NCBI GenBank assembly: GCA_907163375.1
Contig: CAJQUW010000455.1
Coordinates: 1 to 64,000 of the forward strand
Direction of reading: 5' to 3'
Source: Prostheceraeus crozeri
Taxonomy: Eukaryota > Platyhelminthes > Polycladida > Euryleptidae
DNA length: 64,000 nt
Position numbers and translations under genes: made by a program. Numbering within the stretch: the stretch's first letter is position 1; each line of letters starts with the position of its first letter. Below the pieces are notes generated by a model, which was not told the DNA's origin, made no database searches, and saw only the letters and a program-made list of their open reading frames with translations. Shown one piece after another: positions 18,070 to 64,000 of the stretch.

Positions 18070-18109
18070 TTTAAAAGATAAAAAAATTAAGAAGATAAAA
18101 ATAAATGTT

Positions 18110-21951: not shown

Positions 21952-22036
21952 TTTTAAACAATAAAAATAAAATTTTTTCTGATTATAAAAATACATAAAT
22001 TATAAAAATAAAATTTTTCCTAATAAAAATAAAAAA

Positions 22037-22903: not shown

Positions 22904-22936
22904 TATTTCTATTAAAATAGACTTATATATTTAAAT

Positions 22937-23011: not shown

Positions 23012-23084
23012 AAAATAATCTTATATATATTAAAATATTATTTTTTTATAAAGAATAAAATATTATTTTATTAAAATATTCTTA

Positions 23085-23220: not shown

Positions 23221-23256
23221 ATAATAATTCCTAAATTTTTATTTTAAAAATATTAA

Positions 23257-24798: not shown

Positions 24799-24875
24799 AC
24801 AAATTATACAATTTGTTTTTAAATTATTAATATTTTTTTAAATTATTAATATATTTTTTAAATTATCAAAATATT

Positions 24876-25181: not shown

Positions 25182-25319
25182 TTTTTATTTTTTATGCAAA
25201 AAAAGATATTAAATATAACTTTTTTTATAAATAAATATAATTTTATTTATAATCTTCAAACAGTTTGTTTTGTAATTAAATATAATTTTTTTTAAAATTT
25301 TCTCTAAAAAAATAAAAAA

Positions 25320-29801: not shown

Positions 29802-29909
29802 TTTTCTAATTTCTATTTTCTAAATATAACAATATAACAATATAACAATATAAAAATATAAAATATTATAAAATAAAATAAAATAATAATATAAAATTAT
29901 CATATAAAA

Positions 29910-30728: not shown

Positions 30729-30807
30729 GACTTCGCCCGTAGCAGAAATATGTTGTTGTTTTTAATTTTTTATAAAAAAAATATTTATTTAATTTTTTAG
30801 TTTAAAA

Positions 30808-31596
30808 ATGTGTTCAGCAGATTTAGACAAAATTAATAATCATTTAGAAAATTTGATAGAGATTTTGGGTTCATCAAAATTTAGTACGACATTAAAAATT
30901 ATAACAACTACTTCATCACACACTTGTAATTTAGAACCCATTCTACATTTGGAACAAAATAAAAATTATCAAATTGCATTGACTAGTTTCTCTACATTTA
31001 ACACTATTCAAAACGTTATCAAAGATGTGAATGATCAATTTAGATATTCTACTGATAAAGGCAAAACATGGAAAATACTAACTTTTCTTCCTGGTTCTTA
31101 CGAAGTTGAAACAATATCAAATGAAATTAAGAGACATTTAGGTATACCATTTAAAGATAAGAAACAATTACATTTTGCAGTTGAACCGGCAGTTAATAAA
31201 TTTTCTCTTACTTTAGACGAAAATCATCAAGTTGATTTTAATCATGATAGATCATTGTCAAAGCTATTAGGATTTAATAAACAAACCTATAGTCAAGGTT
31301 ATCATTTAGGTGAGAAGATTCCAAAAATAACTGAAATAAATTCAATTGTTGTACATTGTGACATTATTGAAGGAGGATATATAAATGGTAAATTATCAAA
31401 TTTAATATTCAGTTTTCCAGCTTTTACTGTACCCATTGGTTATAGATTAAATGTAATTCCACAAACATTAATATATTTTCCTATTACAAGAAAAACTATT
31501 AACAACATTGGCATTAGAATCACTGATGAAAAAGGACAAGAAATAAATTTTGGAGGTGAAGAAATTATGATAGATCTTTTGGTTCGAGAGGTATAA
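30808..31596 (+). CDS. Minor capsid (penton-like, single jelly roll) protein
   Basis: 262 residues, intact. The pattern YQIALTSFSTFNTIQNV, then TFLPGSYEVETISNEIKRHL, then SLSKLLGFNKQTYSQGYH is typical of Polinton/adintovirus penton proteins. These form five-fold vertices beside the hexon-like shell and carry fibres. Predicted mostly beta strand. It lies between the 29910 gene and the packaging ATPase, and a long hairpin (31679-31747) separates it from the latter. Confidence 0.85.
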   Translation: MCSADLDKINNHLENLIEILGSSKFSTTLKIITTTSSHTCNLEPILHLEQNKNYQIALTSFSTFNTIQNVIKDVNDQFRYSTDKGKTWKILTFLPGSYEVETISNEIKRHLGIPFKDKKQLHFAVEPAVNKFSLTLDENHQVDFNHDRSLSKLLGFNKQTYSQGYHLGEKIPKITEINSIVVHCDIIEGGYINGKLSNLIFSFPAFTVPIGYRLNVIPQTLIYFPITRKTINNIGIRITDEKGQEINFGGEEIMIDLLVREV

Positions 31597-31678
31597 ACTC
31601 CCACGCGAAGCTAGAGAAGTTTAATTTTTTTTATCATTTTCATTATTAATCTTATTAACCTTATTAATCTAATTAATC

Positions 31679-31747
31679 TTTTTAGAAACAAAAAAATAAA
31701 AATAAACTTAAATTAAAATTTTATTTTTATTTTTTTGTTTCTAAAAA
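31679..31747. terminator. 28-bp-stem AT hairpin between penton and ATPase genes
   Basis: The two arms (TTTTAGAAACAAAAAAATAA and onward; reverse complement at 31719-31747) are perfectly complementary over about 27-28 bp around a short AT loop, ending 14 bp before the ATPase ATG. No such perfect palindrome occurs at the other gene gaps. It could end or process the upstream transcript, or be a regulatory site; function is inference. Confidence 0.6.
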
Positions 31748-31760
31748 CACTAATTCAATA

Positions 31761-32549
31761 ATGGATAAATTTATTACTTTAAAAATGAATGAAATGTCTT
31801 TAAATAAAAAAAAACTTAAATTTAATCATCATCCAAATTTATCTAATAAAGTTTTAGCAGTTATTTGCGGAAGATCAGGATGTGGAAAAACATATCTATT
31901 ATTTAAAATTTTAACGTCTCCAAATTTTTTGGATTATAACAATCTTATAATTTATACAACAACGGCAGAACAACCCGTCTATCAATTTTTAAAATATGGA
32001 TTTGAAAATAATCTTACAAAAACAGCAATTGCTTCTCTATTCGAAGAATACGAAAAATCTGAATATGAAGAAGAAATAAATTTGTGGTGTGAAGAAGCAG
32101 CAAAAAATAAACAATTAGTTGAATCCAATAAAAATAAGCATATAAAAATACAATTAATAGATGATAGTGGTAATATGCAAGATCCTAGTAAACTAGATAA
32201 AACAATGAAACATTGTGTAATTTTTGATGATTGTGTTAATGACAGAAATCAGTCAGTTCAAAGAAATTATTTCACAAGAGGTAGACATAATAACTGTAGT
32301 GTATTTTATTTGACACAAAGTATGTATTCATTAGATGGAAGTGTTATTAGAAAGAATGCAAATATATTTATACTATTTGAAATAAATGCAAGAAACTTAA
32401 GTGATTTGTTAAGAGATTTATGTATAAGAGATAAAGATGAATTTAAACAATCGTGTAATAATGCTTGGTCAAAAGATTATGGATTTATCACAATTAATAT
32501 TGATAAAAAAATTCATGAAAGAGTTATCGAACAATTGTTTACCGAGTAA
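31761..32549 (+). CDS. Genome-packaging ATPase (FtsK/HerA, A32-like)
   Basis: 262 residues, intact. Pumps viral DNA into preformed capsids. Walker A CGRSGCGKTYL (~35-45), Walker B CVIFDDCV (~152-159), then FTRGRHNNCSVFYLTQS, matching the packaging ATPase strand/sensor block of Polintons and their viral relatives. It is of normal family length and has no membrane segment, unlike its paralogue at 23257. Confidence 0.92.
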   Translation: MDKFITLKMNEMSLNKKKLKFNHHPNLSNKVLAVICGRSGCGKTYLLFKILTSPNFLDYNNLIIYTTTAEQPVYQFLKYGFENNLTKTAIASLFEEYEKSEYEEEINLWCEEAAKNKQLVESNKNKHIKIQLIDDSGNMQDPSKLDKTMKHCVIFDDCVNDRNQSVQRNYFTRGRHNNCSVFYLTQSMYSLDGSVIRKNANIFILFEINARNLSDLLRDLCIRDKDEFKQSCNNAWSKDYGFITINIDKKIHERVIEQLFTE

Positions 32550-32600
32550 TAAAAATATACAAATATAATGTTTTAATATTTTATTTTTTTATTATCAGCT

Positions 32601-32830
32601 TTAATTTTGTCTATTTTTTTTAAATATAATATTTGAATTTTGTGGTAACATTGGTATACAGCAAAAACATTTTACTGAACAAATTATTTTTTTATTGCTT
32701 TGTTGTTTGTAATCTTTTCGTTTAAAGTTTTCACGTTTAAAGTTTTCACGTTTAAAATTTTCTCGTTTAAAATTTTCTCGTATTAAGTTTTGTTTAATAA
32801 AGTTTTGTCTAATAAAGTTTTTAGCTCTTC
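32601..32830 (-). other. Overlapping frame with ENFKR tandem peptides and Cys-rich tail
   Basis: Downstream of and overlapping the membrane-protein stop, another minus-strand frame encodes RENFKRENFKRENFKR repeats (from four ~15-bp DNA repeats at 32720-32775) and then CSVKCFCC, ending at 32601. It has no ATG of its own. It may be the true C-terminal extension after a frameshift, perhaps at the T-run near 32832, or chance. Confidence 0.3.
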
Positions 32831-33505
32831 TAAAAAAATTTTATCATTTTCTTCATTAAAAATTTTATCATCAATAAAAGTTTTACCATCACTAGAAATT
32901 TTACCATCCTTTTTATTTTTATCATTAACTTTTTCTGTCTGTGATTGAAATGATATTTGATTTACTTCATTAGCTATTTGATCAAATTTTTCAATCTCAT
33001 CTAACGTAATAACATTATCATCACATACTCTTTGAAAGTAGTAGTGTAGTTTATCATAGACTTCTTTAATATGTAAATGCTTAGTTTTTAATGATTTTCG
33101 TTTCTTAGTTATTAAAGATTTATCTAACATTGTAACAAGTGAAGTTGCAAAAACACCCGTACCTGTTAAAGCTGTAGCAACTACTGGAATTACTAAAACA
33201 CCTGAAGATATAACAATTGTCAAAGCACCTAAACTTATTGTTAAGAATATGCCAATTCCTTGTGTTACATTCTTAACTTTAGTCCATCTCTTTCTTAATT
33301 TTTTATAATGCTCTAATCTTAATAATAATTGAGATTCCTTATCTTTCATATACCTAACTCTATCTTTGTGTTTTTCTTTATTCATTTTTTCAATGTTAAT
33401 CTTTTCAATGTCCATTAAAGTAGAACTACGTTCATATGATAACGAAGGATATATTCTTGAGGTTCCTTCCATTTCTGAAGTTCCTTCCACTTTTGTTTCT
33501 TCCAT
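32783..33505 (-). CDS. Two-helix membrane protein partly inside the terminal repeat
   Basis: The frame is open from 33610, but the sensible ATG is 33505, giving 240 residues, because it follows an AT-rich leader and matches the ATG retained in the left terminal repeat. N-terminal KVEGTSEMEGTS repeats, a basic coiled stretch, then a long hydrophobic hairpin (GIGIFLTISLGALTIVISSG...VVATALTGTGVFATSLV), then a charged tail with KTFIDDKIF-like repeats. Likely a membrane or fusion-associated accessory protein; I do not recognise a specific family. Confidence 0.65.
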   Translation of the reverse strand: MEETKVEGTSEMEGTSRIYPSLSYERSSTLMDIEKINIEKMNKEKHKDRVRYMKDKESQLLLRLEHYKKLRKRWTKVKNVTQGIGIFLTISLGALTIVISSGVLVIPVVATALTGTGVFATSLVTMLDKSLITKKRKSLKTKHLHIKEVYDKLHYYFQRVCDDNVITLDEIEKFDQIANEVNQISFQSQTEKVNDKNKKDGKISSDGKTFIDDKIFNEENDKIFLEELKTLLDKTLLNKT

Positions 33506-34031
33506 TTTTAAAGAAATATTTTTAGTCACATGATATATTTTAAAAACCTGAAAAATGGATTTAAAAGACGTTTTTAAAAATACTAATTTTCGGTGTCCTA
33601 GAACGGTCATGATTTAAGCAATGAAAATCAAACCGAAGGTTCTAGGGCTTCGCCCGATTGTAATTCTCAAATTTGAGATTCTCAACTTTTATAATTTTTT
33701 AGTGTCCTAGAACGGTCATGATTTTGAGGGTGAAAATTGTAATTCTCAAATTTGAGATTTTGAAAAATTTGAAAATTGGGTACTTTTAAAAACGACATAA
33801 ATTCATGAATTTAGTCCCTTTTTCAGGTTTTTAAGACCTAAATTCATGAATTTATGTCGTTTTTAAAAGTACCATTTTTGAAAAAAATGGTACTTTTTGA
33901 ATGAACCAAATTCATGAATTTAGGTCTTCAAAACCTGAAAAAGGGACTAAATTCATGAATTTATGTCGTTTTTAAAAGAACTAATTTTTTTTGATTTTAT
34001 GGTGTCCTGGTCCGGTCTTTTTCCCATTACT
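33290..34031. repeat. Right terminal inverted repeat of the Polinton
   Basis: Reverse-complement partner of 14730-15515. It includes the first codons of the membrane-protein gene (start 33505, minus), so the repeat border lies within a coding region. One of the GC-rich hairpin inserts (33638-33656) is shared with the left repeat (15107-15125), so that insert predates or was copied with the repeat. Confidence 0.92.
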
Positions 34032-51145: not shown

Positions 51146-51245
51146 TAAGATTTGCTGATAGAAATACTTGAATAGCTTTTTTTGCTGCAGCTGTTAGTAG
51201 TAAGTAAAACTCCACTTCTGGATAGCGCAAGATGGCCGCCATCGC

Positions 51246-52920
51246 TGACGTCCCCCCCCTGGAACGGCAGAGTGTCGTGGTCGGCCGCCGTGGTGCTTCG
51301 GGTCTGACTCCCCCCCCCTCTGGAACGACAGAGGTTGTAGTCTGTCGTGGTGTGCCGGCCAGGTGGGTCCACGTTCACAAACTGTTCGCTGACTCCCCCC
51401 CCCCTGCAACGACAGAGTGTGAGACTCGGGTGAGTTGGTCCGACCGCCTGGTTGACGTGGGCGACCGTCCAGGTTGACGTGGGCGACCGTCTAGGTTGAC
51501 GTGGGCGACCGTCCAGGTTGACGTGGGCGACCGTCTAGGTTGACGTGGGCGACCGTCTAGGTTGACGTGGGCGACCGTCTAGGTTGTCGTGGATGGTGAA
51601 ATGGCTGCCAGATTCGGATTCAGCGTAAAATTCTGCATCGGTAGGGTGAGTTTCAAGGCAATCGGCGAGAAAAAATGTTTCTTCAAAATTTTGGCAGAGT
51701 TAAAATTTGGGACGTTTTGGTGTGTAGCGCCCAAACGAGGCATCGGATGAGAAAACGGAGGTCAGATTCGGATTCAGCGTGAAATTCTGCATCGGTATGG
51801 TGAGTTTCAAGTCAATCGGAGAGAAAAAATTTTCGCTGACGTCCCCCCCCCTCTGGACAGCTTGCTTCGATCTTGGCTTCCAGTGGACGGATTTAGTCGT
51901 GCCATAGCTCGTTTGAAAGCTAAGAGTGAGACAAATTCAGTGAAAGAATCGGCTTGTTCCTATCTGTCTTCGTTTAGATGTGAGACGCCATTTAAGATTT
52001 TGGGACATTGGCGAAAAACGACAGAGTTAGAATTTGGAACGTTTTGGGCTCTAGCTTCAAAACGAAGCATCGGATGGGAAAACGGATTTCAGATTTGGAA
52101 TCAGCGTGAAATTCTCTATCTGTATGGTGAGTTTCAAGTCAATCGGAGAGAAAAAATTTTCAACATTTTTCGAAAAAACGACATAGTTAGAATTTTTGCA
52201 ATGGCTGCCTACTGTAGAGCCAAAACGAAGCATCGGATGGGAAAACGGAGGCCAGATTCGGATTCAGCGTGAAATTCTACATGGAAATGGTGTATTTCCA
52301 GCTCAATCGGAGAGAAAAAAAATTTCGGCTGACGTACGTCCCCCCCCCTCTGGACAGCTTGCTTCGATTTTGGCTTCTAGTGGACGGATTTTGTCGTGCC
52401 ATAGCTCGTTTGAAAGCTAAGAGTGAGACAAATTCAGTGAAAGAATCGGCTTGTTCCTATCTGTCTTCGTTCAAAAGTTAGAGCGGTTACAAGATTTTAG
52501 GTCGGAGCTCGCTCACCTGAAAAAATCCTAAGTGTCAGAGTGGCTTTGTATGGGTAAAATTTTGAAAATTTTCCAAAGTGTGGAATTTCGACCTGGGACC
52601 GTCACCAAAACATTTTTCATCAAATTTTGAAATTTCGCTGACGTCCCCCCCCCTCTGGACAGCTAGCTTCGATCTTGGCTTCTAGTGGACGGATTTTGTC
52701 GTGCAATAGCTCGTTTGAAAGCTAAGAGTGAGACAAATTCAGTGAAAGAAACGGCTTGTTCATATCTGTCTTCATTCAAAAGTTAGAGCGGTTACAAGAT
52801 TTTAGGTCGGAGCTCGCTCACCTGAAAAAATCCTAAGTGTGAGAGCTCCAGTGTGGTGAAAATTTTGACCTGGGACCGTCACCAAAACATTTTTCATCAA
52901 ATTTCTCTGAACGAGGGGGG
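51246..52920. repeat. C-tract terminal repeats of element 2
   Basis: Units contain GACGTCCCCCCCC-CTCTGGACAG, followed by GTGGACGGATTTTGTCGTGC, AATAGCTCGTTTGAAAGCTA and GAGTGAGACAAATTCAGTG. C-runs of 7-9 lie at 51249, 51309, 51396, 51846, 52340 and 52646. The same order of words occurs at 4310-5470 (same strand) and 40530-41490 (inverted). Open frames here are repeat-encoded and not counted as genes. Confidence 0.8.
51466..51592. repeat. 22-bp tandem repeat, about six copies
   Basis: TTGACGTGGGCGACCGTCTAGG (variant ..GTCCAGG) repeats about six times head to tail, so each unit has the half-CRE word TGACGT. It lies within the terminal repeat region of element 2 and is absent from the element-1 arms. 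Confidence 0.85.
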
Positions 52921-53035
52921 GGAGTCAGTGAAATTTGATGAAAAATGCTTTGGTAAAGGTCCCAGGTCGAAATTCGGAAGTTTCAAATTTTTCAAAATTT
53001 TCACCACACTGGAGCTCTCGCACTTAGGAATTTTT
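52812..53035. repeat. ~100-bp-arm foldback ending the terminal repeats
   Basis: CTAAGTGTGAGAGCTCCAGTGTGGTGAAAATTTTGACC-type sequence at 52830-52905 is answered by its reverse complement at 52930-53032, centred near 52910 on a C/G run (GAGGGGGGGGAG). It separates the terminal repeats from the first TATA promoter. Confidence 0.8.
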
Positions 53036-53210
53036 TCACTTGTGGCATGTTACATGGACATGTGCTGACGGACCATTTTCCCGTGGTCATATGAGAATGG
53101 TTCAGGTGTCATATTGTAAAGAATGATGAGACGAATCGTTTGCAACAAACCGCATGTCGCTACGATGAATACTTTCGGAGATAGAGCCGTTTTAAGTTTT
53201 CTTCCGAGCA

Positions 53211-53218
53211 TATATAAA
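53211..53218 (+). promoter_or_regulatory. TATA box of the Cys/coiled-coil gene, with 5' UTR intron
   Basis: TATATAAA, with transcription expected near 53240. Donor-like GTAAGT (53231) and GTAAGC (53261) follow, and the acceptor TTATCTTACAG ends at 53792, 18 bp before the ATG at 53810. An intron of about 530 nt in the leader is therefore likely; the decayed element-1 copy keeps an equivalent acceptor. Confidence 0.55.
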
Positions 53219-53809
53219 CCCCCGACAACGTAAGTCTGATCACTTCATCGAAAGACGAGGTAAGCGACGGTCGTCGCTCTGAGCTCCCGATATCGGGTGT
53301 TTCAAAGGACTCTATCTTTTGAAGTAGGCAAGCTATCTTCTTACTTCAAAGTTTGTATGATAGAGTTTGATAGTGTCTTTACTACTGATAAAATTTTTTA
53401 AAAGTAGTATGAGTAGTAAAATGCGGAATTTTTTAAAAATTCTTAATTTTCACTTTTTTCAAAGTTTTAACATATAGACTAAGGTTTTCAAGTATCCTGA
53501 GTTCAAATCGGCTATCAGATTTGAAATTTAACTAAGTCTAAGGCAGCTTTGAGGGGTTAGATCCCAGCTACTGATCACTACCTTTGACTCGGCGTTCCTG
53601 TTACCACTTCGGGGCAGTGACAATGATGTCTTCAGCTGTAAAGAGCGGGTATCGGGGAAGATCTCTCACTTCCCTAGTGATCAGTACAAGGCCTTCGGGC
53701 TGTCGACGGGATCGAGTGCCACTCACTACACTCTTTAGGAATATGACTGTACTACATGATTCCAAACTTATACAAATTTCATTATCTTACAGCTAACGAT
53801 AAAACAGGC

Positions 53810-54979
53810 ATGGCAAACGATAAAAACAGAAAATACCATATCAAAATGTGTGTGTGCGGTCGTATAAATCGCAGTGCGGACGCCAAGGCTCATGTCAAGA
53901 AGGCGGGCACCGGCCACATGATTATCTTGAATAGGGTTGCGTGCGTGAAGTGCAGAGTGCTGAAGGGTGATGAGGATGAGGCGCGTTTTTACAGAGTGCA
54001 TGCTGACTGTAGTGGTGGTTTAGTGACTGATTTGAGATTTACGCAGTTGATTGTGGAAGAGAGGGAGCGAATGTTGGCGATCGAGCGAGAGGGTAAGGCT
54101 GAGAATGTTGTTGTTGAGAATGATGAGTTGGCGAGAGCGGTTGCGTCGTTGGAGGGTGAGATTGAGCGAAAGAGAGTGCTTGAGAGTGATGATGAGGATG
54201 ATGTGGATTTAGATAGGGAGCGTGTGAGGAAGCGTGTGAGGGAGTTGAGCTCTTCGTCATCGGAGGTGTCAGACATCGTCATCACCGACCCCCCGAAGAG
54301 CTCATCTTCCCCAAAAGTGAAGAGTGGTGGGATTCGTGTGCAGTCGGCGAGGTGGTTGAAGGATGAAGAGAAGAGGCATGTTTCGCAGCAGATGGCGCAT
54401 AATTTGTTGGTGAATAAGTATGAGAGTTTGAAGAAAGTGAAGGATGAAGTTGTGAAGGAGTTGGATGAGTTAAAAAAGAAGGAACTGAAGTCGAAGGAGG
54501 TGGCGGATGAAAACATTAGAATGAGGCGTTGTGTGACTGATTTGAAGAATAAGACGCGAGAGTTGGAAGAGAAGAATGATGAGTGTGAGAAGAGGGCGAG
54601 TGCTGCGGAGAGAAGAATGAGAAATGCAGAGGCGAAGTTTGAGGAGATGATGAAGGAGATGAGTGTGTTGAGAGCGAGGAATGTTGAGTTGGAGAGGACT
54701 GTGGCTCGGCGGGGTGATGAGAGGCAGGCGTATGAGAAGTTGGAGCGCATGAGGGATGAGTGGGAACGTGTGAATGAGGATCGTTTGTTTGAGTTTCACA
54801 TCCCTATTCGGGATAATCATTTGGCCGGCGAAGTACTCGTCAATCAAAATCTGGACGAGTCAATAATATGTTACAACGGCCATCCGACCAAGAAATGTCT
54901 GCATGCCAGCCTAAGAATGCGCGGTCACTTACACAAATTCTCGATTCGGAAACGCGCGAGACTACCAAAGGATGACTAA
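53810..54979 (+). CDS. Cys-motif / coiled-coil protein of element 2
   Basis: The frame is open from 53756, but the ATG at 53810 follows the probable splice acceptor and fits the homologue at 14517, giving 389 residues. Residues ~12-50 have C-x-C, paired His and C-x2-C (MCVCGRINRSADAKAHVK ... ACVKCR), a possible zinc-binding module. An acidic/serine region follows (~130-175; ESDDEDDVDLD, SSSSSEVSDIVI, where DIVITD resembles a SUMO-interacting motif). Then come a long coiled coil (~190-330) and a short basic C terminus. Composition suggests a DNA- or chromatin-associated, dimerising protein. It is the first gene of the cluster and is followed by cassette copy 1. Its family is not recognised. 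Confidence 0.75.
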   Translation: MANDKNRKYHIKMCVCGRINRSADAKAHVKKAGTGHMIILNRVACVKCRVLKGDEDEARFYRVHADCSGGLVTDLRFTQLIVEERERMLAIEREGKAENVVVENDELARAVASLEGEIERKRVLESDDEDDVDLDRERVRKRVRELSSSSSEVSDIVITDPPKSSSSPKVKSGGIRVQSARWLKDEEKRHVSQQMAHNLLVNKYESLKKVKDEVVKELDELKKKELKSKEVADENIRMRRCVTDLKNKTRELEEKNDECEKRASAAERRMRNAEAKFEEMMKEMSVLRARNVELERTVARRGDERQAYEKLERMRDEWERVNEDRLFEFHIPIRDNHLAGEVLVNQNLDESIICYNGHPTKKCLHASLRMRGHLHKFSIRKRARLPKDD

Positions 54980-55076
54980 CTTGGTAAGTGAAAAAGTAAA
55001 TAAGATAGTATATCCTATTCTAATACATATCATTTTCATTTGAGATCTTTGCCCGCCTTCACCACCCCATCACGTC

Positions 55077-55220
55077 ACTCCCGAGAACGAACCATCGGCT
55101 CTCTTAAGGGCCACCTAGGGGCAAGACATGATAGAACCTCCACGCGGTTTGCCCTGGGCAGTCTTCGGACTGGCGAATACTATCATTAAGTTGAAACTGC
55201 TATCAGTCAACTTGAACGTT
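55077..55220 (+). ncRNA. 144-nt cassette copy 1 with histone-like 3' stem-loop
   Basis: GGCTCT-CTTA-AGGGCC (55097-55112), preceded by GAACCATC and followed by ACC, has the 6-bp stem and 4-nt loop of replication-dependent histone mRNA 3' ends. Beyond it lie GGGCAA..TTGCCC pairing, a perfect CAGTC-TTCG-GACTG hairpin (UUCG tetraloop) and AAGTTGA..TCAACTT (6-7 bp stem). It lies 118 nt after the stop of the 53810 gene and just upstream of the next TATA box (55238). Confidence 0.6.
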
Positions 55221-55237
55221 GCGTCGCGTTAGAGGGG

Positions 55238-55245
55238 TATATAAA
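55238..55245 (+). promoter_or_regulatory. TATA box of the 55277 gene
   Basis: TATATAAA, 32 bp before the ATG, implying a 5' UTR of only about 10 nt. The leader ends CATTTCATTTCATTTCAATC, a CATTT triplet repeat. Confidence 0.75.
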
Positions 55246-55276
55246 CCACTGCCTCTCATTTCATTTCATTTCAATC

Positions 55277-55543
55277 ATGCAGACGCCGAACAGTCAAGTC
55301 AGCTCTCCTCGCGGACCGCAGTTAAGGCCGCGAAATTTATTTGAGGAGTTTGTCAGGCTAGAGGAGCAAGACAGAGTTTTTAATAATCTTGCTCGGATTG
55401 GCAATCCGATGACAGCAACTGCTGTCAATCCAACGGAATGGTGCTACATTCCACTTTTTAGCCATGTACCAGTTAGTGTGGAAGTCGACAGTGCTACCAA
55501 AGAGAGAGTCAAAGACTCTCTCAGCAGAATTGGTAGGGTGTAA
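55277..55543 (+). CDS. 88-residue protein (cluster gene A)
   Basis: ATG at 55277 directly after a TATA promoter, stop at 55541. Residues: Pro/Gln-rich N terminus, a charged helix around LFEEFVRLEEQDRVFNNL, then TEWCYIPLFSHVPVSVEVDS and a charged tail. No known domain. The stop is 30 nt before the stem-loop of cassette copy 2. The gene is intronless and has no AATAAA nearby. Confidence 0.65.
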   Translation: MQTPNSQVSSPRGPQLRPRNLFEEFVRLEEQDRVFNNLARIGNPMTATAVNPTEWCYIPLFSHVPVSVEVDSATKERVKDSLSRIGRV

Positions 55544-55552
55544 GATGACGTT

Positions 55553-55696
55553 ACTCCCGAGAATGAACCATCGGCTCTCTTAAGGGCCACCATGGGGCAA
55601 AATTTGATAGAACCTCCTCGCGGTTTGCCCTGGGCAGTCTTCGGACTGGCGAATACTATCATTAAGTTGAATCTGCTATCAGTCAACTTGAACGTT
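55553..55696 (+). ncRNA. 144-nt cassette copy 2 with histone-like 3' stem-loop
   Basis: Nearly identical to copy 1. The stem-loop GGCTCT-CTTA-AGGGCC is at 55573-55588 with 3' flank ACCA, exactly 30 nt after the gene A stop codon. The UUCG hairpin and the AAGTTGA/TCAACTT stem are conserved. Confidence 0.62.
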
Positions 55697-55761
55697 ATGC
55701 AATCGATTGCTATCCCTGGAGCATTCTGATTCGCTGTTGAGCAATTCATTGTTGAAAACCC

Positions 55762-55769
55762 TATATAAG
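55762..55769 (+). promoter_or_regulatory. TATA box of the 55810 gene
   Basis: TATATAAG, 41 bp before the ATG; expected 5' UTR about 15-20 nt. Confidence 0.72.
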
Positions 55770-55809
55770 CCAGAAGATTGTAGCGCTTCTCATTCAATTT
55801 GAAGTCACG

Positions 55810-56064
55810 ATGGAAGCGACATCTACCGACAACAATCCCGTCTTCACCGATGAAGACAACGCCATTCCCGAGTTCGTCATCCTCGACGAGTGGGATGAGG
55901 AGGATGAGAAGAAGGGGAAGATCAAGAGGATCGTTTGGACGGATGAGGTGTGGACTCCAAATACCACCCGCATCCGAAAGGTGCCAGATGCACCAGCACG
56001 GCTTAGGCGGTATAGGGTATACGAGAACCTAACCGTCATACCTATTGACTATTCAAGCCAATAG
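55810..56064 (+). CDS. 84-residue acidic protein (cluster gene B)
   Basis: ATG at 55810 after a TATA box, stop at 56062. The first half is strongly acidic (FVILDEWDEEDEKKGKI, in which EFVILDE has SUMO-interacting-motif character); the second half is basic (RIRKVPDAPARLRRYRVYE). No family recognised. The stop lies 30 nt before the stem-loop of cassette copy 3, the same spacing as gene A. Confidence 0.65.
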   Translation: MEATSTDNNPVFTDEDNAIPEFVILDEWDEEDEKKGKIKRIVWTDEVWTPNTTRIRKVPDAPARLRRYRVYENLTVIPIDYSSQ

Positions 56065-56074
56065 TCATCTTGTT

Positions 56075-56217
56075 ACTCCGAGAACGAACCATCGGCTCTC
56101 TTAAGGGCCACCATGGGGCAAGACATGATAGAACCTCCTCGCGGTTTGCCCTGGGCAGTCTTCGGACTGGCGAATACTATCATTAAGTTGAATCTGCTAT
56201 CAGTCAACTTGAACGTT
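56075..56217 (+). ncRNA. 143-nt cassette copy 3 with histone-like 3' stem-loop
   Basis: Stem-loop at 56094-56109 with 3' flank ACCA, 30 nt after the gene B stop. The rest matches copies 1 and 2. It is followed by the block shared with element 1 at 6.55-6.9 kb rather than by a TATA-driven gene. Confidence 0.62.
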
Positions 56218-56219
56218 GC

Positions 56220-56660
56220 AAATGAAGTTCGGTGTAATACTTCCTTTCGACGGGCGTTCCTGTAAAGGGCGGCGGTGAAACCCGTAGCTATGTATACCGC
56301 AAGGGACATTCAGCAATGGTCAATCTTGTTAAACCTCTCTGCGTCATGTTTGCAAGTGATTGCCTCTGTCTCAACGTAGTATGCATTCGCGTCAGGGCGA
56401 CATTTAGCCAACTGTCGAAGGTTGCCTAAAACTTTCCATTGCATACGTTATGAGAACCATGAGTTCTACCTGTCTCTATCAATGAGACGAATTGATGAAT
56501 GGAATGAAATGGGAGGACACTCACGCGCCACACGCAACATAAAACACTTCTCTCTTCCGTAGTCTAACAAGCTCTTTACACATGGATCGCAGTCGATTGC
56601 TATCCCTGTATCAGAAGTGTAAGCTATCTTAATTTTATTTGACACTATTTCATCTATCAT
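56220..56660. repeat. Block shared with element-1 arms
   Basis: It matches 6546-6890 (same strand) and the reverse complement of 39100-39450: words such as GCAAGGGAC, TTGTTAAACCTCTCTGCGTC, CAGGGCGACATTTAGC and AGACGAATTGATGAATG recur in order. Short minus-strand peptides (for example RVARECPPIS..RLIDRDR) are partly conserved across the three copies, which hints at an ancestral gene. Confidence 0.7.
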
Positions 56661-56689
56661 CATCGTCCATATGAAATGTTTTAAGATTT

Positions 56690-57130
56690 ACAAGTTAGAC
56701 TAAGCGTTCTACTATTTGTAAATGAAAGATATAGTTTCACCAGTTTACAAGTTAAAAAATAAAGTTTCAATGGTGTATATGTTGGAAATAAAGTTTTAGC
56801 TGTTTGTATATCAAAATAAAGTTTCAATGGTGTATACGTTAGAAATAAAGTTTTAGCTGTTTGTATATCAAAATAAAGTTTCAAGAGTTTACAAGTTAGA
56901 AATAACGTTTCAATAGTGTATGCGTTAGAAATAAAGTTTTAGCTGTTTGTATATCAAAATAAAGTTTCAAGAGTTTACAAGTTAGAAATAAAGTTTCAAT
57001 AGTGTGTATGTTAGAAATTAAGGTATAACTGTTTGTAAAAATAAGATCGCAAGATTTACTAGTTTACAAGTTAGATTAAGTGTAAATTAAAATAAAATTA
57101 TAACTGTTCACGAGTTAAAGCGTTGATGCA
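56690..57130. repeat. AATAAAGTTT-type repeats, short array
   Basis: Imperfect 29-30-bp units of TTAGAAATAAAGTTT, TTTCAATGGTGTATA and TTTACAAG words, the same family as the 59.7-64 kb array. No gene is seen between 56660 and 57335. Confidence 0.8.
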
Positions 57131-57335
57131 ACGATGAACAATTAATAAGCTGAAAAGTTTTAGATTCACTTTAACATTACCATATGTTTACAGATAGAAA
57201 TGTATCACAGCAAAGCTACTTCATGAGTTAGTTTGCCAGGAGTGTATCATCTCAAACTTTTACTCCGTCGTTGAAATTTCATGACGACTTTTTGCTAAAC
57301 GAAAGTTAACACCAGAGGAGCGTAGGGGTGGGTGG

Positions 57336-57812
57336 TATAAAATACGCCTACAGCACTGAGAGAGTTGGAGTGCATGAGCTATGTACATTCTTTTGACGAT
57401 GAGAGGAGCGATTCAGCCGATGGCGCAGGTAGTTTCCCAGAGCATGGAGGACATTGTTTAGGTGACTCTAAGGGCGTATGTCGAGCTACCTTCAGTGATA
57501 GGCTTCCAACTCATGATGAATGATGATATGCTTACGACCTACATTCAACCATTGGTGTATGCCCACACCCTCCCCCACAACGAGCTTGTCTGCCACATTG
57601 TATTCATGAGTGTGGCTCAAAGTAGGAAATTGATTGATGAGACTTTGCTGAAATATCCAAGGCGCGTATTCAAGCATGGTCGCCTACTGTTGGAGTATTA
57701 TTATCAATGGCGCGACGACACACATTTGCCCACCCGTGTTTTACCACACCTATCAACGGAAGAATACAATAGAGCTTTAGTCGAGACGGTGAAAGGAGAC
57801 GATGAGCGCTAG
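57336..57812 (+). pseudogene. TATA-driven gene with one in-frame TAG
   Basis: TATAAAAT (57336-57343) precedes an ATG at 57379. That frame runs 26 codons to a TAG (57459-57461), then stays open to 57812, giving about 116 further codons with protein-like composition (LPHNELVCHIVFMSV, RRVFKHGRLLLEYYYQWRDD). The 33-nt segment 57429-57461 starts GT and ends AG and its length is a multiple of three, so its removal would restore the frame; 33 nt is very short for an intron, so a nonsense mutation is as likely. The function is unknown. Confidence 0.45.
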
Positions 57813-57901
57813 CGGGCGAATGAAGCATCGGTGAGAGTGGGAATCAACTTGATTCTATTCTCCAATGAGGATTGTTGTCTAATGAGAATCAAGCATTCCT
57901 T

Positions 57902-57909
57902 TATAAATA
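57902..57909 (+). promoter_or_regulatory. TATA box of the ATG-only-exon transcript
   Basis: TATAAATA lies about 108 bp before the ATG at 58010; the leader contains a CT-rich stretch (57971-57985). Confidence 0.6.
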
Positions 57910-58009
57910 GAGAGCCTTCCACACTGAGAATCATTCCATCGTTGAATCGTACAAGTGACGGACGCACATTCTCTCTCTCTCTACATCCCTGTTATATTAT
58001 CCAACTAAA

Positions 58010-58784
58010 ATGGTAAGTCGCTACTTTCCTCCCTCTCCTCCCTTGAACGTAAACTTGATAGAATCTTTTTTATTTTCAGGCATCTTCTACATCTACTACA
58101 CTGACAGGACAAAATGGTGGTCAGACGTTACAAGGTTCGCTACAATCAGATCATCTACAGCTGAGACCAGTGGAAGAAACAACAAAGGTACATAATCCTA
58201 CACCGCTACAGCGTAAATTTAAACAAGTCTTGCGTCATGAGGATCACAGCGTAGTACTGCGAACGGGAATGCTCCCTTCCACTGATGTGAAGATATTGAG
58301 CAATCAGTATGGGGATTACATACTCATCCCCGTGAGTCCGTACATTCGCCACCAACTAGACATTATTGAAGAGTACGTGACATTAAATATGGACATTCCT
58401 ACTCCTCTTGCTCAAGAGTGGAAGGCGAGAGATGAAAAGGATACTCCCTATAGAAAGATTTGGGATGGCAATCAAATTTGCCTACCATTATCACATTGGT
58501 GTAGTTATTATAAAAAGGATAGAGATCAATCAATACCCACCAGATGTGATGAGCTCGGAGAAGGTACTTGGGATATCATTTTCAAAGTGAATGGACTATA
58601 TTATGGTCAGCACAAGGATAACAAAATAGCCTCTCTCTCGATATACACTAAATCCATCATATATATTCCAAAGCCACCCAGCGTAGATGACATTATTGAC
58701 GAAATCCTTAACAGCAGTGGTACGAAGCGCAAGTCGGAGAAGAATGCTGCATCAAAACGCAAATCAAAGAAGGAGAATTACTAG
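58010..58784 (+). CDS. Spliced gene: ATG-only coding exon 1 plus 234-codon exon 2
   Basis: Exon 1 coding part is only the ATG (58010-58012), immediately followed by GTAAGT. The 67-nt intron (58013-58079) ends TTTTATTTTCAG. Exon 2 (58080-58784) is open from its first base and gives a 235-residue product starting Met-Ala-Ser. Its body has Ser/Thr/Gln-rich N-terminal residues, then YGDYILIPVSPYIRHQLDII and WDIIFKVNGLYYGQHKDN, and a Lys-rich C terminus (KRKSEKNAASKRKSKK) resembling a nuclear localisation signal. Mixed strand-helix content with a basic tail suggests a nucleic-acid-associated protein; no family recognised. A second acceptor (58977) may share the same ATG exon. Confidence 0.65.
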
Positions 58785-58818
58785 TCCTTTCCTAACTCTA
58801 CCCTATGACAATTCGCTT

Positions 58819-58944
58819 ATGTGCTTTGAGTGTCGTAGACGTGGTCTTATTAGATACATTTTACTTCTTCGTTGCCATCATATCATTTGTGTATTTTGTC
58901 GTGAAAAGCATCGATGTAATTCTTCATTTTGCAATATGTTATAG
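58819..58944 (+). CDS. Mini RING-like Cys/His ORF
   Basis: 41 codons from the ATG at 58819: CFECRRR..., then RCHHIICVFC, then CNSSFC. Spacing C-x2-C, C-x-H-x3-C-x2-C and C-x4-C resembles the core of a RING or related cross-brace zinc finger. The frame is open upstream to at least 58687, overlapping the 3' end of the preceding exon in another frame, so it may be part of a larger spliced product. If translated it could act in ubiquitin ligation; it is short for a full RING. Confidence 0.4.
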   Translation: MCFECRRRGLIRYILLLRCHHIICVFCREKHRCNSSFCNML

Positions 58945-58977
58945 AACGTTTCCTTAGATATGTAATTTCCGTTTTAG

Positions 58978-59526
58978 GCTTCTATCATCATTTTTATGGA
59001 TTGTGAGCGTGAACCTGTACAGGAGCTCAGTGCTATTGCTATGAACAATTGGTCATATCAGATTGTTAGTGTCTATCATCAACATGCCAACTGCGATCCC
59101 AATGTTGATCAATGGGCGAGAAAACACATTCATGGACTTAATCTGAAATATTTGCAAGACTATGGCTTTTCTTGTGAGAATGCTCTTCTTATTGACTTTA
59201 AACGATGGTTAGCTACTTTCAATGTTATACGCATCTTTTGTAATAATCCTGGTAAGGAGAGGAAAGTATTTCCCAATCTAGTCATTAATGATATTTTGCT
59301 CCCACCTTGGGATAGTAGAGTGAATCAACACTATCATGAAGTCACGAAACGTTTTAAGGATTTGTGTGTTCCTATTTTGTCTGTTCGTTGTAGTAGCTAC
59401 GTTCATAACCAATGCTTCTTTCCTCCTTACCTCAACACTGCCAAAGTCATATATGGTTATCATTGCTCGCTATATGACAGTTACCAGCTGTATCTATTTT
59501 ATCTGTTTCAAACCATTGATTTGTAA
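58978..59526 (+). CDS. DEDD-exonuclease-like protein, probably spliced to the ATG-only exon
   Basis: The frame is open from 58978, right after an acceptor (TTTCCGTTTTAG), and an internal ATG lies at 58996. Starting from the ATG exon at 58010-58012 it would begin Met-Ala-Ser and have 183 residues. FMDCEREPVQELSAI resembles Exo I (DxE) of DnaQ/RNase T-type 3'-5' exonucleases. DFKRWLATFNVIRIFCNNPGK could be the Exo II region and SLYDSYQLYLFY Exo III. The assignment is by motif order only. A polyadenylation signal AATAAA follows at 59549. If correct, it may process cellular or element nucleic acids. Confidence 0.5.
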   Translation, partial: ASIIIFMDCEREPVQELSAIAMNNWSYQIVSVYHQHANCDPNVDQWARKHIHGLNLKYLQDYGFSCENALLIDFKRWLATFNVIRIFCNNPGKERKVFPNLVINDILLPPWDSRVNQHYHEVTKRFKDLCVPILSVRCSSYVHNQCFFPPYLNTAKVIYGYHCSLYDSYQLYLFYLFQTIDL

Positions 59527-59548
59527 TGCATGCTTGTTACAGTTATTC

Positions 59549-59554
59549 AATAAA
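59549..59554 (+). terminator. Polyadenylation signal
   Basis: AATAAA 23 nt after the exonuclease-like stop codon, in contrast to the stem-loop cassettes used by the three upstream genes. Confidence 0.5.
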
Positions 59555-59689
59555 TGTTATTATGCGAAGAGTTGTTGTTGTTATCATGCGACGGATGGGT
59601 TAGATGAAGGGTGATCATATCTTTTTCAAAGGACTGTGGAACATTGATTTCCATGATGAGGATTATAACAGTTAGATTTGATGACGAAT

Positions 59690-62600
59690 AAGATTTACTA
59701 GTTTGCAAGTTAGACTAAGCGTTCTATTATTTGTAAATGAAAGATATAGTTTCAATAGTTTACACGTTAAAAATAAAGTTTCAATAGTGAGTATGTTAAG
59801 AATAAAGTTCTATCTGTTTGTATGTTAGAAATAAAATGAAGTTTCATCAGTTTACAAGTTAAGAATAAAGTTTTATCTGTTTGTATGTTAGAAATAAAAC
59901 AAAGTTTCAACCGTTAACAATTTAAAAATAAAGTTTCAATAGTTTGCAAGTTAAAACTAAAGTTTCAATAGTGCGTATGTTAAGAATAAAGTTCTATCTG
60001 TTTATATGTTAGAAATAAAAATGAAGGTTCACCAGTTTACAAGTTAAGAATAAAGTTTTATCTGCTTGTATGTCAGAAATGAAATAAAGTTTCACCAGTT
60101 TACAAGTTAAAAAATAAAGTTTCAATAGTGTGTACGTTAGAAATAAAGTTTCAATAGTGTATATGTTAAGAATAAAGCTTTATCTGTTTGTATGTTAGAA
60201 TTAAAAAACCGGTTTCAACCGTATACAAGTTAAAAATAAAGTTTCAATAGTTAACACGTTAAAAATAAAGTTTCAATAGTGTATATGTTAAGAATAAAGT
60301 TCTATCTGCTTCTATGTTAGAAATAAAAATGAAGGTTTACCAGTTTACAAGTTAAGAATAAAGTTTTATCTGTTTGTATGTTAGACATAAAACAAAGTTT
60401 CAACCGTTAACAAGTTAAAAATAAAGTTTCAGATTAAAATAAAGTTTCAATAGTGTGTATGATGGAAATAAAGTTTAAGAGCTTTGTGCGTTAAAAATAA
60501 AGTTTCAACATTGTGTACGTTAAGAATAAAGTTCTATCTGTTTATATGTTAGAAATAAAAATGAAGGTTCATCAGTTTACAAGTTAAGAATAAAGTTTTA
60601 TCTGCTTGTATGTCAGAAATGAAATAAAGTTTCACCAGTTTAAAAGTTAAGAATAAAGTTTCAATAGTGTGTATGATAAGAATATAGTTCTATCTGTTTA
60701 TATGTTAGAAATAAAATGAAGTTTCGTCAGTTTACAAGTTAAGAATACATTTTATCTGCTTGTATGTTAGAATTAAAACAAAGTTTCAACCGTTTACAGG
60801 TTAAAAATAAAGTTTCAATAGTTAACACGTTAAAAATAAAGTTTCAATAGTGTGTATGTTAAGAATAAAGTTCTATCTGTTTGTATGTTAGAAATAAAAT
60901 GAAGTTTCATCAGTTTACAAGTTAAGAATAAAGTTTTATCTGTTTGTATGTTAGACATAAAACAAAGTTTCAACCGTTAACAAGTTAAAAATAAAGTTTC
61001 AATAGTTTACAAGTTAAAACTAATGTTTCAATAGTGCGTATGTTAAGAATAAAGTTTTATCTGTTTCTATGTTAGAAATAAAATGAAGCTTCACCAGTTT
61101 ACAAGTTAAGAATAAAGTTTTGTCAGCTTGTATGTTAGAAATAAAATGAAGTTTCACCAGTTTACAAATTAAAAATAAAGTTTCAATAGTGTGTACGTTA
61201 GAAATAAAGTTTCAACCGTTTACAAGTTAAAAATAAAGTTTTCAACAGTGTCTACGTTAGAAATAATGTTTTATCTGTTTGTAAAGTACGATCGTAGGAT
61301 TTACTAGTTTGCAAGTTAGACTCAGCATTCTACTAGTTGTAAATGAAAATATCGTTTCAACAGTTTACAAGTTAAAAATAAAGTTTCAACGGTGTGTACG
61401 TTAGAAATAAAGTTTTAGCTGTTTATATGTTAGAAACAAAATAAAGTTTCAACAGTTTACAAATTGAAAAATAATGTTTCAACAGTGTGTACGTTAGAAA
61501 TAAATGAAAGTAAGAACTTCATCGTATGAGTATTCAAAGCATGTTTTGTAAATCAAATGTGTGTAGTCCTGACATGATAGAATCGCGTTAGAAATAAAGT
61601 TTCAGCCGTTTACAAGTTAAAAATAAAGTTTCAACGGTGTGTACGTTAGAAATAAAGTTTTAGCTGTTTATATGTTAGTAACAAAATAAAGTTTCAACAG
61701 TTTACAAGTTGAAAAAATAAAGTTTCAACAGTGTGTACGTTAGAAATAAATGAAAGTAAGACCTTCATCGTATGAGTATTCAAAGCTTGTTTTGTAAATC
61801 AAATGTGTGTAGTCCTGACATGATAGAATCGCGTTAGAAATAAAGTTTCAGCCGTTTACAAGTTAAAAATAAAGTTTTAGCTGTTTATATGTTAGAAACA
61901 AAATAAAGTTTCAACAGTTTACAAGTTGAAAAATAAAGTTTCAATAGTGAGTATGTTAAGAATAAAGTTCTATCTGTTTGTATGTTAGAAATAAAATGAA
62001 GTTTCATCAGTTTACAAGTTAAGAATAAAGTTTTATCTGTTTGTATGTTAGAAATAAAACAAAGTTTCAACCGTTAACAAGTTAAAAAATAAAGTTTCAA
62101 TAGTTTACAAGTTAAAACTAATGTTTCAATAGTGCATATGCTAAGAATAAAGTTCTATCTGTTTATATGTTAAAAATAAAAATGAAGGTTCACCAGTTTA
62201 CAAGTTAAGAATAAAGTTTTATCTGCTTGTATGTCAGAAATGAAATAAAGTTTCACCAGTTTACAAGTTAAAAAATAAAGTTTCAATAGTGTGTACGTTA
62301 GAAATAAAGTTTCAATAGTGTATATGTTAAGAATAAAGCTTTATCTGTTTGTATGTTAGAATTAAAAAACCGGTTTCAACCGTATACAGTGTACAAGTTA
62401 AAAATAAAGTTTCAATAGTTAACACGTTAAAAATAAAGTTTCAATAGTGTATATGTTAAGAATAAAGTTCTATCTGTTTGTATGTTAGAAATAAAAATGA
62501 AGGTTTACCAGTTTACAAGTTAAGAATAAAGTTTTATCTGTTTGTATGTTAGACATAAAACAAAGTTTCAACCGTTAACAAGTTAAAAATAAAGTTTCAG

Positions 62601-64000
62601 ATTAAAATAAAGTTTCAATAGTGTGTATGATGGAAATAAAGTTTAAGAGCTTTGTGCGTTAAAAATAAAGTTTCAACATTGTGTACGTTAAGAATAAAGT
62701 TCTATCTGTTTATATGTTAGAAATAAAAATGAAGGTTCATCAGTTTACAAGTTAAGAATAAAGTTTTATCTGCTTGTATGTCAGAAATGAAATAAAGTTT
62801 CACCAGTTTAAAAGTTAAGAATAAAGTTTCAATAGTGTGTATGATAAGAATATAGTTCTATCTGTTTATATGTTAGAAATAAAATGAAGTTTCGTCAGTT
62901 TACAAGTTAAGAATACATTTTATCTGCTTGTATGTTAGAATTAAAACAAAGTTTCAACCGTTTACAGGTTAAAAATAAAGTTTCAATAGTTAACACGTTA
63001 AAAATAAAGTTTCAATAGTGTGTATGTTAAGAATAAAGTTCTATCTGTTTGTATGTTAGAAATAAATGAAGTTTCATCAGTTTACAAGTTAAGAATAAAG
63101 TTTTATCTGTTTGTATGTTAGACATAAAACAAAGTTTCAACCGTTAACAAGTTAAAAATAAAGTTTCAATAGTTTACAAGTTAAAACTAATGTTTCAATA
63201 GTGCGTATGTTAAGAATAAAGTTTTATCTGTTTCTATGTTAGAAATAAAATGAAGCTTCACCAGTTTACAAGTTAAGAATAAAGTTTTGTCAGCTTGTAT
63301 GTTAGAAATAAAATGAAGTTTCACCAGTTTACAAATTAAAAATAAAGTTTCAATAGTGTGTACGTTAGAAATAAAGTTTCAACCGTTTACAAGTTAAAAA
63401 TAAAGTTTCAACAGTGTCTACGTTAGAAATAATGTTTTATCTGTTTGTAAAGTACGATCGTAGGATTTACTAGTTTGCAAGTTAGACTCAGCATTCTACT
63501 AGTTGTAAATGAAAATATCGTTTCAACAGTTTACAAGTTAAAAATAAAGTTTCAACGGTGTGTACGTTAGAAATAAAGTTTTAGCTGTTTATATGTTAGA
63601 AACAAAATAAAGTTTCAACAGTTTTACAAATTGAAAAATAATGTTTCAACAGTGTGTACGTTAGAAATAAATGAAAGTAAGAACTTCATCGTATGAGTAT
63701 TCAAAGCATGTTTTGTAAATCAAATGTGTGTAGTCCTGACATGATAGAATCGCGTTAGAAATAAAGTTTCAGCCGTTTACAAGTTAAAAATAAAGGTTCA
63801 ACGGTGTGTACGTTAGAAATAAAGTTTTAGCTGTTTATATGTTAGAAACAAAATAAAGTTTCAACAGTTTACAAGTTGAAAAATAAAGTTTCAACAGTGT
63901 GTACGTTAGAAATAAATGAAGTAAGACCTTCATCGTATGAGTATTCAAAGCTTGTTTTGTAAATCAAATGTGTGTAGTCCTGACATGATAGAATCGCGTT
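59690..64000. repeat. AATAAAGTTT tandem array with ~2.17-kb higher-order repeat
   Basis: Basic units are about 29-31 bp: (GTTAGAA)ATAAAGTTTCAATAG plus TGTGTA or TTTACAA. A higher-order period of about 2166 bp is visible: the rare block GATGGAAATAAAGTTTAAGA occurs at 60462 and again at 62628. The spacer with CTTCATCGTATGAGTATTC appears near 61517, 61763, 63685 and 63930. The array runs off the window end. No gene is present; the many AATAAA words would be strong poly(A) signals on the plus strand. Confidence 0.9.

Follow-up and report, generated by a model that had tools for sequence, protein, structure and literature searches.

Most natural mRNA 3′ ends are formed by cleavage and polyadenylation, and those of the replication-dependent histones by a pathway that uses U7 and SLBP, with histone mRNAs cut 4 to 5 nucleotides (nt) after the stem of a stem-loop. 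In one report, a histone stem-loop was placed directly before a hepatitis delta virus (HDV) ribozyme in a synthetic beta-globin reporter, “His-delta,” and the level of unspliced reporter RNA in HEK293 cells was restored (PMC4456446); in another, a hammerhead-cut reporter without a stem-loop was not translated (PMC4744033). HDV-like ribozymes cut at the first nucleotide of helix P1 (PMC4908430), and a group of them, the theta ribozymes, abut the 3′ ends of phage tRNAs (PMC10879173). Here, we describe a repeated DNA element of the polyclad flatworm Prostheceraeus crozeri, one copy of which lies in a 64,000-nt window (the whole stretch of DNA analyzed, positions 1 to 64,000 of contig CAJQUW010000455.1 in assembly GCA_907163375.1). 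We consider it probable, on the evidence of sequence, that three genes of this high-copy element pair a histone-type stem-loop with a predicted HDV-like ribozyme and so acquire self-cut, histone-like, nonpolyadenylated ends without U7. With somewhat less assurance, we favor the evolutionary reading that a mobile element swapped the U7/CPSF73 half of histone 3′ processing for a ribozyme and kept the SLBP-binding half, its self-cut mRNA being disguised as that of a histone.

Histone-type stem-loops and predicted ribozymes at three gene ends

The plus strand of the window carries three copies of a ~144-nt cassette, at 55.08 to 56.22 kb, after the open reading frames (ORFs) of gene 1, gene A, and gene B (Table 1). 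GGCTCTCTTAAGGGCC starts at 55097, 55573, and 56094, and from the stem-loop onward, pairwise comparisons of the three cassettes give 110, 113, and 114 identical positions of 117. The core is GGCTCT-CTTA-AGGGCC, then ACC(TA/AT), then the ribozyme sequence; all three stem-loops have the 6-bp GG...CC stem, 4-nt loop, and following ACC that are features of the histone 3′ stem-loop (RF00032). None of the three genes contains a histone domain (Pfam, E value of ≤1). A sequence-only reading of this DNA, which had recognized the cassettes behind three nonhistone genes, was also accurate in its surroundings: the stops of genes A and B both lie 29 nt upstream of their own stems, the usual histone spacing (the end of gene 1 lies 117 nt upstream); AATAAA and ATTAAA are absent from window positions 53000 to 56757, the first AATAAA being at 56758; and each gene has a TATA box before it (TATATAA at 53211, 55238, and 55762). 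The Rfam histone stem-loop model matches all three copies (18.1 to 20.2 bits, E values of 0.09 to 0.52), all below the gathering cutoff of 34 and weak when taken alone; Rfam gives no match at gathering threshold anywhere in the window. Copy number rules out a chance origin of the stem-loop: the host genome (2.05 Gb in 14,165 contigs) contains 11,208 exact instances of the stem-loop-ACCNN-GGGGCAA junction and 0 of the reversed pattern.

The sequence after ACCNN reads GGGGCAA-GAC-ATGATAG-A-ACC-TCC(A/T)CGC-GGT-TTGCCCT-GGG-CAGTC-TTCG-GACTG-GCGAATA-CTATCAT, with copy B deviating in J1/2 and at the opening base of P2. Its segments are ordered P1, P2, P3, L3, P3′, P1′, P4, J4/2, P2′, which is the order of an HDV-like ribozyme, and a nested double pseudoknot of P1 to P4 with a 7-bp P1 can be drawn in all three window copies. 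P1.1 we infer from the conserved GG and the L3 C alone. Matches to the Rfam HDV models (E-value mode) start, in all three copies, at the nucleotide following ACCNN or 2 nt before it. A descriptor of the double pseudoknot, written after the window sequences had been seen (7-bp P1 opening with G1.U37, in what we take to be the usual numbering; L3 of TC[CT]NCG; GG after P1′; 5-bp P4; J4/2 of NCNA; 5-bp P2), finds three matches on both strands of the 64 kb (55118, 55594, and 56115) and none in 150 dinucleotide-shuffled windows. We do not file the window ribozymes under RF00094 or RF02682, whose thresholds lie above their scores.

The predicted cut falls exactly 5 nt past the stem, matching the cut position of histone mRNAs. 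The purine-rich stretch CAAGACATGATAGA, which the sequence-only reading had taken for a possible mimic of the U7-binding element, is instead the P1/P2 strand of the HDV-like ribozyme, which begins exactly 5 nt past the stem; standing in place of the U7 site, it implies that the predicted cut is therefore made by the RNA itself. Coupling to S phase through U7 cleavage is for that reason not expected, and coupling via SLBP abundance is possible for the element.

The sequence of events that we propose is as follows. Polymerase II would transcribe past the stem-loop, and the nascent ribozyme would fold and cut cotranscriptionally at ACCNN|GGGG, leaving an upstream product that ends in the stem-loop plus ACCNN with a cyclic phosphate. 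Host SLBP would then bind the exposed stem-loop, protect the end, and aid export and translation as it does for histone mRNAs, and the downstream piece, with its 5′-OH end, would be lost ahead of the next promoter. Compact, poly(A)-independent messages would be the gain for the element, with a leftover coupling to the cell cycle that would run via SLBP levels and not via U7 cleavage.

The host has the parts that this scheme would borrow. Five of 10 fetched histone H4 3′ regions carry a stem-loop, GGCCCTCTTAAGGGCC, GGCCCTTCTAAGGGCC, or GGTCCTTCTAAGGACC, followed by ACCAC and preceded by GAACGC...AAAC, and the stem-loop in the window and its close copies (family 1, below) is one base off GGCCCTCTTAAGGGCC. 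Four host H4 stem-loops score 27.6 to 30.9 bits on the Rfam histone model, likewise below gathering, and the four H4 loci scanned contain no HDV match (E value of ≤1). The host SLBP gene gives two PF15247 matches (52.7 and 32.9 bits) and includes the region RTPNKF.KYSRRQWD, which we take to belong to the SLBP consensus. A search for a host U7 gene returned no match, but its controls were silent too. What stands of the proposal that a selfish or viral cluster exploits the SLBP/U7 pathway is thus the SLBP side, namely, a histone-type end nearly copying that of host H4 and a host SLBP gene; U7 processing is unsupported. The host genome contains at least 151 H4-like matches, many of them fragmentary or with stops. 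The five H4 3′ regions without a stem-loop (L063, L066, L068, L069, and L070), several of which lose homology just before the stem-loop site, are perhaps retrocopies of histone mRNA.

Table 1. Positions of genes, stem-loops, predicted ribozymes, and associated features in the window
Feature	Positions	Strand	Basis or remarks
Gene 1, 389 amino acids, mostly coiled-coil-like	53810..54979	+	TATA 53211; ORF
Histone-type stem-loop A	55097..55112	+	After gene 1; 0 substitutions in 15 aligned element copies
Predicted cut A	55117/55118	+	
HDV-like ribozyme A	55118..55186	+	HDV_ribozyme 24.8 bits, HDV-F-prausnitzii 26.8 bits, both below gathering; descriptor match
Predicted catalytic C, ribozyme A	55174	+	
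Hairpin downstream of ribozyme A (AAGTTGA...TCAACTT)	55188..55213	+	Sequence; equivalent hairpin folds in copies B and C
Gene A, 88 amino acids	55277..55543	+	TATA 55238; ORF
Histone-type stem-loop B	55573..55588	+	After gene A; 0 substitutions in 15 copies
Predicted cut B	55593/55594	+	
HDV-like ribozyme B	55594..55662	+	HDV_ribozyme 29.6 bits, HDV-F-prausnitzii 27.2 bits, below gathering; descriptor match
Predicted catalytic C, ribozyme B	55650	+	
Hairpin downstream of ribozyme B	55664..55689	+	Sequence, fold
Gene B, 84 amino acids	55810..56064	+	TATA 55762; ORF
Histone-type stem-loop C	56094..56109	+	After gene B; 0.0125 substitutions/site in 15 copies
Predicted cut C	56114/56115	+	
HDV-like ribozyme C	56115..56183	+	HDV_ribozyme 27.5 bits, HDV-F-prausnitzii 26.5 bits, below gathering; descriptor match
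Predicted catalytic C, ribozyme C	56171	+	
Hairpin downstream of ribozyme C	56185..56210	+	Sequence, fold
Gene E	58010..58784	+	ATG 58010-58012, predicted intron 58013-58079, exon 58080-58784
Gene F	58996..59526	+	AATAAA at 59549, 22 nt past stop

Copies across the genome and a diverged family

Exact matches to the 24-nt ribozyme core number 11,533 genome-wide (reversed pattern, 0), and cassettes from different positions match at ~91 to 99%. We define family 1 by the window and its close copies and sampled it through the first 20 loci listed by the core search, aligned to the window. Among the 60 ribozymes located there by the core only (window included), 59 are accompanied by the stem-loop, 56 times in its exact form and at an identical distance in 59 of 59. 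The 18 unique cassettes of this family all retain the G.U wobble, the L3 motif UC[CU]NCG, and the GG after P1′, and 17 of the 18 have the catalytic C. Across 15 long-matching copies, the three stem-loops show 0.000, 0.000, and 0.0125 substitutions/site and ribozymes A, B, and C 0.007, 0.044, and 0.007, compared with 0.005 to 0.023 for promoters and 0.045 to 0.064 for coding regions. Exact stem-loops without a G at the next three positions occur at 10 places genome-wide, as against the 11,208 junctions, six of them in an unrelated repeat and four in rearranged element copies (two with small insertions and ribozyme-like sequence nearby, one with a deletion, and one ended just past ACC). The last of these is insufficient as evidence of where transcripts end.

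That unrelated repeat (L095, L096, L097, L099, L100, and L101) has the identical 16-nt stem-loop and no ribozyme, with mostly GCGAACGCCAAAT before and ACCACCT after; no histone ORF lies within ~430 nt, and two loci were checked 2.5 kb farther upstream. Two noncoding stretches of the element, 53260 to 53792 (a predicted intron in the 5′ untranslated region [UTR] of gene 1) and 56220 to 56600 (past cassette C), have a promoter-like 0.012 substitutions/site; neither matches an Rfam family at gathering, and the fold of 53540 to 53740, part of that intron, is no better than those of shuffled sequences (z score of −0.17).

A genome-wide search by the Rfam histone model yields at least 52 matches, 9 of them above the cutoff (75 scored of 295,389 candidates). 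The 31 of the 52 that were inspected lie in 30 loci, 27 of which are diverged copies of the element (L029, L030, and L058 are not), and these define family 2. Here, GGCTCTTTTAAGAGCC plus ACAC (or variants) is followed by GGAGCAA...TGATAG.ACC-TCCTCGT-GGT-TTGCTCT-GGA-CAGAC-TTCG-GTCTG-ACTGAAT-CTATCAC (or variants), the stem-loop mostly having CAAAC before it and ACAC after. Scores on the histone model are 30 to 36 bits, seven being over the gathering cutoff, and the alignment to one host H4 end shows 30 identities in 38 positions. The family 2 core has 686 genome occurrences with up to 2 mismatches. The genes upstream are related either to gene 1 (L036, 24% over 176 columns, E value of 5e-8) or to gene A (L038, 56%), and the arrangement of the cassette is retained between the families despite identities of 56% for gene A and 24% for the gene 1 tail.

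Conservation of the family 2 stem-loop was counted only on 20 loci picked by the ribozyme core and not by the stem-loop. A fully paired GG...CC hairpin stands immediately upstream at 14 of these loci, versus 2 of 3,600 shuffles; counting fully paired hairpins of other kinds brings the number to 15, and at 19 loci no fewer than 5 of 6 (or 5 of 5) pairs form. In five loci, GGTCT...AGACC replaces GGCTC...GAGCC, so that three stem pairs are swapped on both sides. Within the ribozyme, the families differ by paired changes at P1 pair 3 (G-C to A-U), P2 pair 1 (A-U to G-C), and P4 pair 4 (U-A to A-U). An alignment of 31 cassettes has 95.8% of cells paired, versus 25 to 43% with slid partners, and 22 double-sided cells, versus a shuffled mean of 8.0 (0 of 500 shuffles reach 22). 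The catalytic C is present in 27 of 27 unique family 2 cassettes and the G.U in 22; over both families (45 unique cassettes of 86 parsed), G1.U37 is found in 40, the catalytic C of J4/2 in 44, and each P1 to P4 pair in 38 to 45, counting as mismatches both L031 and L043, in which the parsing misplaces P1. At L092 and contig C5878:367-375 kb, 10 family 2 ribozyme cores stand in tandem with an 804-bp period.

Weighing the explanations

Several observations weigh against self-cut histone-like ends. The window ribozymes score 24.8 to 29.6 bits on HDV_ribozyme (gathering, 50) and 26.5 to 27.2 on HDV-F-prausnitzii (gathering, 44), with E values of 0.07 to 2.8, and family 1 stem-loops, at 18 to 20 bits, score lower on the histone model than the 27.6 to 30.9 bits of host H4. 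Nested folds are of mild excess stability over shuffles (z scores of −0.63, −1.35, and −2.07), the pseudoknot being invisible to such folding. Ribozyme B has a P2 shorter by one pair, and its 0.044 substitutions/site is about as high as in coding sequence, because in J1/2 and P2 the window copy is unlike the majority of those fetched. The copies are young and homogenized, and their low diversity is partly that of recent spread. In the 31-cassette alignment, two stricter measures of covariation are no higher than in shuffles: 4 pairs change on both sides (3.5 in shuffles, 214 of 500 reaching 4), and there are 14 further pair types (14.3 in shuffles, 439 of 500 reaching 14); most double-sided changes trace to the one family split and amount to few events. 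Among the 20 family 2 hairpins, 5 are 15 nt long with a 5-nt loop and 1 locus has no proper hairpin; the family 2 J4/2 is ACTGAAT (25 of 27), versus GCGAATA in family 1, and HDV models find no match (E value of ≤1) in the five family 2 loci scanned. Family 2 ribozymes may thus be slow or dead, their activity appearing more doubtful than that of family 1. Finally, gene 1 has introns predicted from splice signals only, at 53260 to 53792 in the 5′ UTR and 54984 to 55044 in the 3′ UTR, and our search found no retrocopies spliced across the latter, itself unproven, intron. In the His-delta reporter, the stem-loop and ribozyme failed to restore splicing (PMC4456446), which would be a difficulty for our interpretation if the UTR introns are real.

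The alternative that fares best, although we regard it as unlikely, is that the ribozymes have another job, whether splitting a read-through transcript, ending transcription through 5′-OH entry, or maturing a downstream RNA, and that the hairpin stabilizes the product without SLBP. The three ribozymes do stand in series, each followed by a hairpin, and the HDV-like ribozymes of known retrotransposons free the downstream RNA (PMC3774820). Every gene here, however, has its own TATA box, with that of promoter A ~50 nt past ribozyme A and that of promoter B ~100 nt past ribozyme B, so that the downstream message needs no cutting; and a generic stabilizer would not need a hairpin that nearly copies the host histone one.

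We give still less credence to an ordinary histone 3′ end cut by SLBP and the U7 small nuclear ribonucleoprotein, with the ribozyme likeness inactive or accidental. Such an end would fit the stem-loop, the ACC, the spacing, the absent AATAAA, and the presence of a host SLBP, and the Rfam HDV scores are under cutoff, but the HDV core lacks no part and keeps a fixed register, the four H4 3′ ends scanned lack any HDV match, and P1/P2 sits where U7 would pair. Least probable, by a small step, is a cassette acting as DNA (a homogenized repeat that would serve in recombination, replication, or packaging of the element, its ribozyme and hairpin being relics), for which the ~91 to 99% likeness among cassettes, the large palindromic copies, and one array can be cited, and against which stand the compensatory changes between subfamilies in P1, P2, P4, and the stem, the fixed strand and position after gene ends, and the catalytic C in 44 of 45 unique cassettes.

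The element and its relation to known systems

Genes A and B look to be under purifying selection (pooled ratios of nonsynonymous to synonymous polymorphism of 0.38 in 15 unique copies and 0.28 in 11, respectively), and gene 1 has no Pfam family above cutoff. Gene B is followed in the window copy by genes D, E, and F. Gene F is probably polyadenylated in the ordinary way, given its poly(A) signal, in contrast to genes 1, A, and B, and the special ends appear restricted to these three in the window copy, as far as seen. Gene E has eight relatives (47 to 92% identity); its AlphaFold model is of modest confidence (mean predicted local distance difference test score of 63), and the best Foldseek matches are phage proteins, single-stranded-DNA-binding proteins included (best E value of 0.012, none ≤0.001), so the modeled product is likely a single-stranded-DNA-binding protein. 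Some element copies have a long downstream reading frame with a common start (1,266 amino acids in L020 and 1,289 in L094). That of L020 contains Endonuclease_7 above cutoff and a zinc finger below it and has 96 relatives, including Caenorhabditis proteins and proteins 71 to 99% identical encoded on contigs of other species, some with PF03175 and one named DNA-directed DNA polymerase; PF03175 itself has no match in the frame (E value of ≤0.1), and the B-type polymerase motifs NNLYG and DTDS are invariant in an 18-sequence alignment. The repeated element, itself apparently selfish, thus resembles a DNA-polymerase-encoding, Polinton-like mobile element, short of a Polinton assignment.

Tandem arrays flank the gene cluster at window positions 51200 to 53040 and 56640 to 64000, those on the right having AATAAAGTTTCAAC-like units rich in poly(A)-signal hexamers. 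Genes D to F of the window are also present, inverted, downstream in L093 (89.8%). On contig C82 (L023 1768-9901; L094 1770-9900), a giant palindrome has inverted arms of >8 kb that are 99.6% identical and carry the array, genes 1, A, and B, and the polymerase-like frame. Elsewhere in the window (16987 to 33610) lies a separate AT-rich gene set (~22 to 30% GC) with a B-type DNA polymerase (PF03175) and, by eye, integrase-like and ATPase-like frames. A long inverted repeat at 52814 to 53046, in which MIR821 is called on both strands below gathering, is the location of the “MIR821” and “mir-3938” matches at 52.8 to 53.05 kb, which we rejected. In a collection of viral contigs, one stem-loop pattern and one ribozyme pattern had no exact match and gene E relatives were not found; by Rfam (E value of ≤1), two distant DNA-polymerase loci there (L071 and L072) have neither stem-loop nor ribozyme.

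If our interpretation is correct, the known routes to an mRNA 3′ end would be joined by another, in which a ribozyme makes an end that carries a stem-loop, and a selfish element would use it at very high copy; the two halves of histone mRNA processing would be separable in evolution; and HDV-like ribozymes could serve the RNA upstream of the cut. The copies of the element would also provide natural variation, by the thousands, on a compact module without poly(A) that resembles the laboratory-built one. Our searches of open-access literature showed no case of a natural mRNA end combining stem-loop and ribozyme.

Among mobile elements, Polinton/Maverick and adintovirus-like elements offer a close comparison. 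Some copies of the present element share with them Endonuclease_7 and B-type polymerase motifs, and the window copy encodes a likely single-stranded-DNA-binding protein; the element differs in its stem-loop-ribozyme gene ends and palindromic copies and in that no capsid, integrase, or ATPase gene was recognized in the element stretches listed, no systematic search having been made. With replication-dependent histone ends (RF00032), the element shares the 6-bp stem, 4-nt loop, ACC, cut (here predicted) 4 to 5 nt past the stem, and lack of a nearby poly(A) signal, but its genes are nonhistone, the predicted cutter is the RNA itself, and no U7 site is recognized in the cassette. Ribozymes of R2 and other non-long-terminal-repeat retrotransposons likewise have an HDV-like fold in animal mobile elements; there, the ribozymes free the element RNA downstream of the cut, whereas here the useful product appears to be upstream (PMC3774820). 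Theta ribozymes are similar in that the cut site adjoins a structured RNA whose 3′ end the ribozyme would make, in a viral genome, but that RNA is a tRNA and not an mRNA, the genomes are those of bacteriophages, and the ribozymes are minimal, without the P4 that the element's ribozyme has (PMC10879173). By analogy, the hammerhead and His-delta reporters (PMC4744033 and PMC4456446) offer precedents for the logic and no proof for the element. The order of parts in His-delta equals that in the element; the former is man-made, and the latter is natural, at three genes and in thousands of copies. The architecture of stem-loop plus ribozyme has been built artificially before (PMC4456446), and the flatworm element would be a natural occurrence of it.

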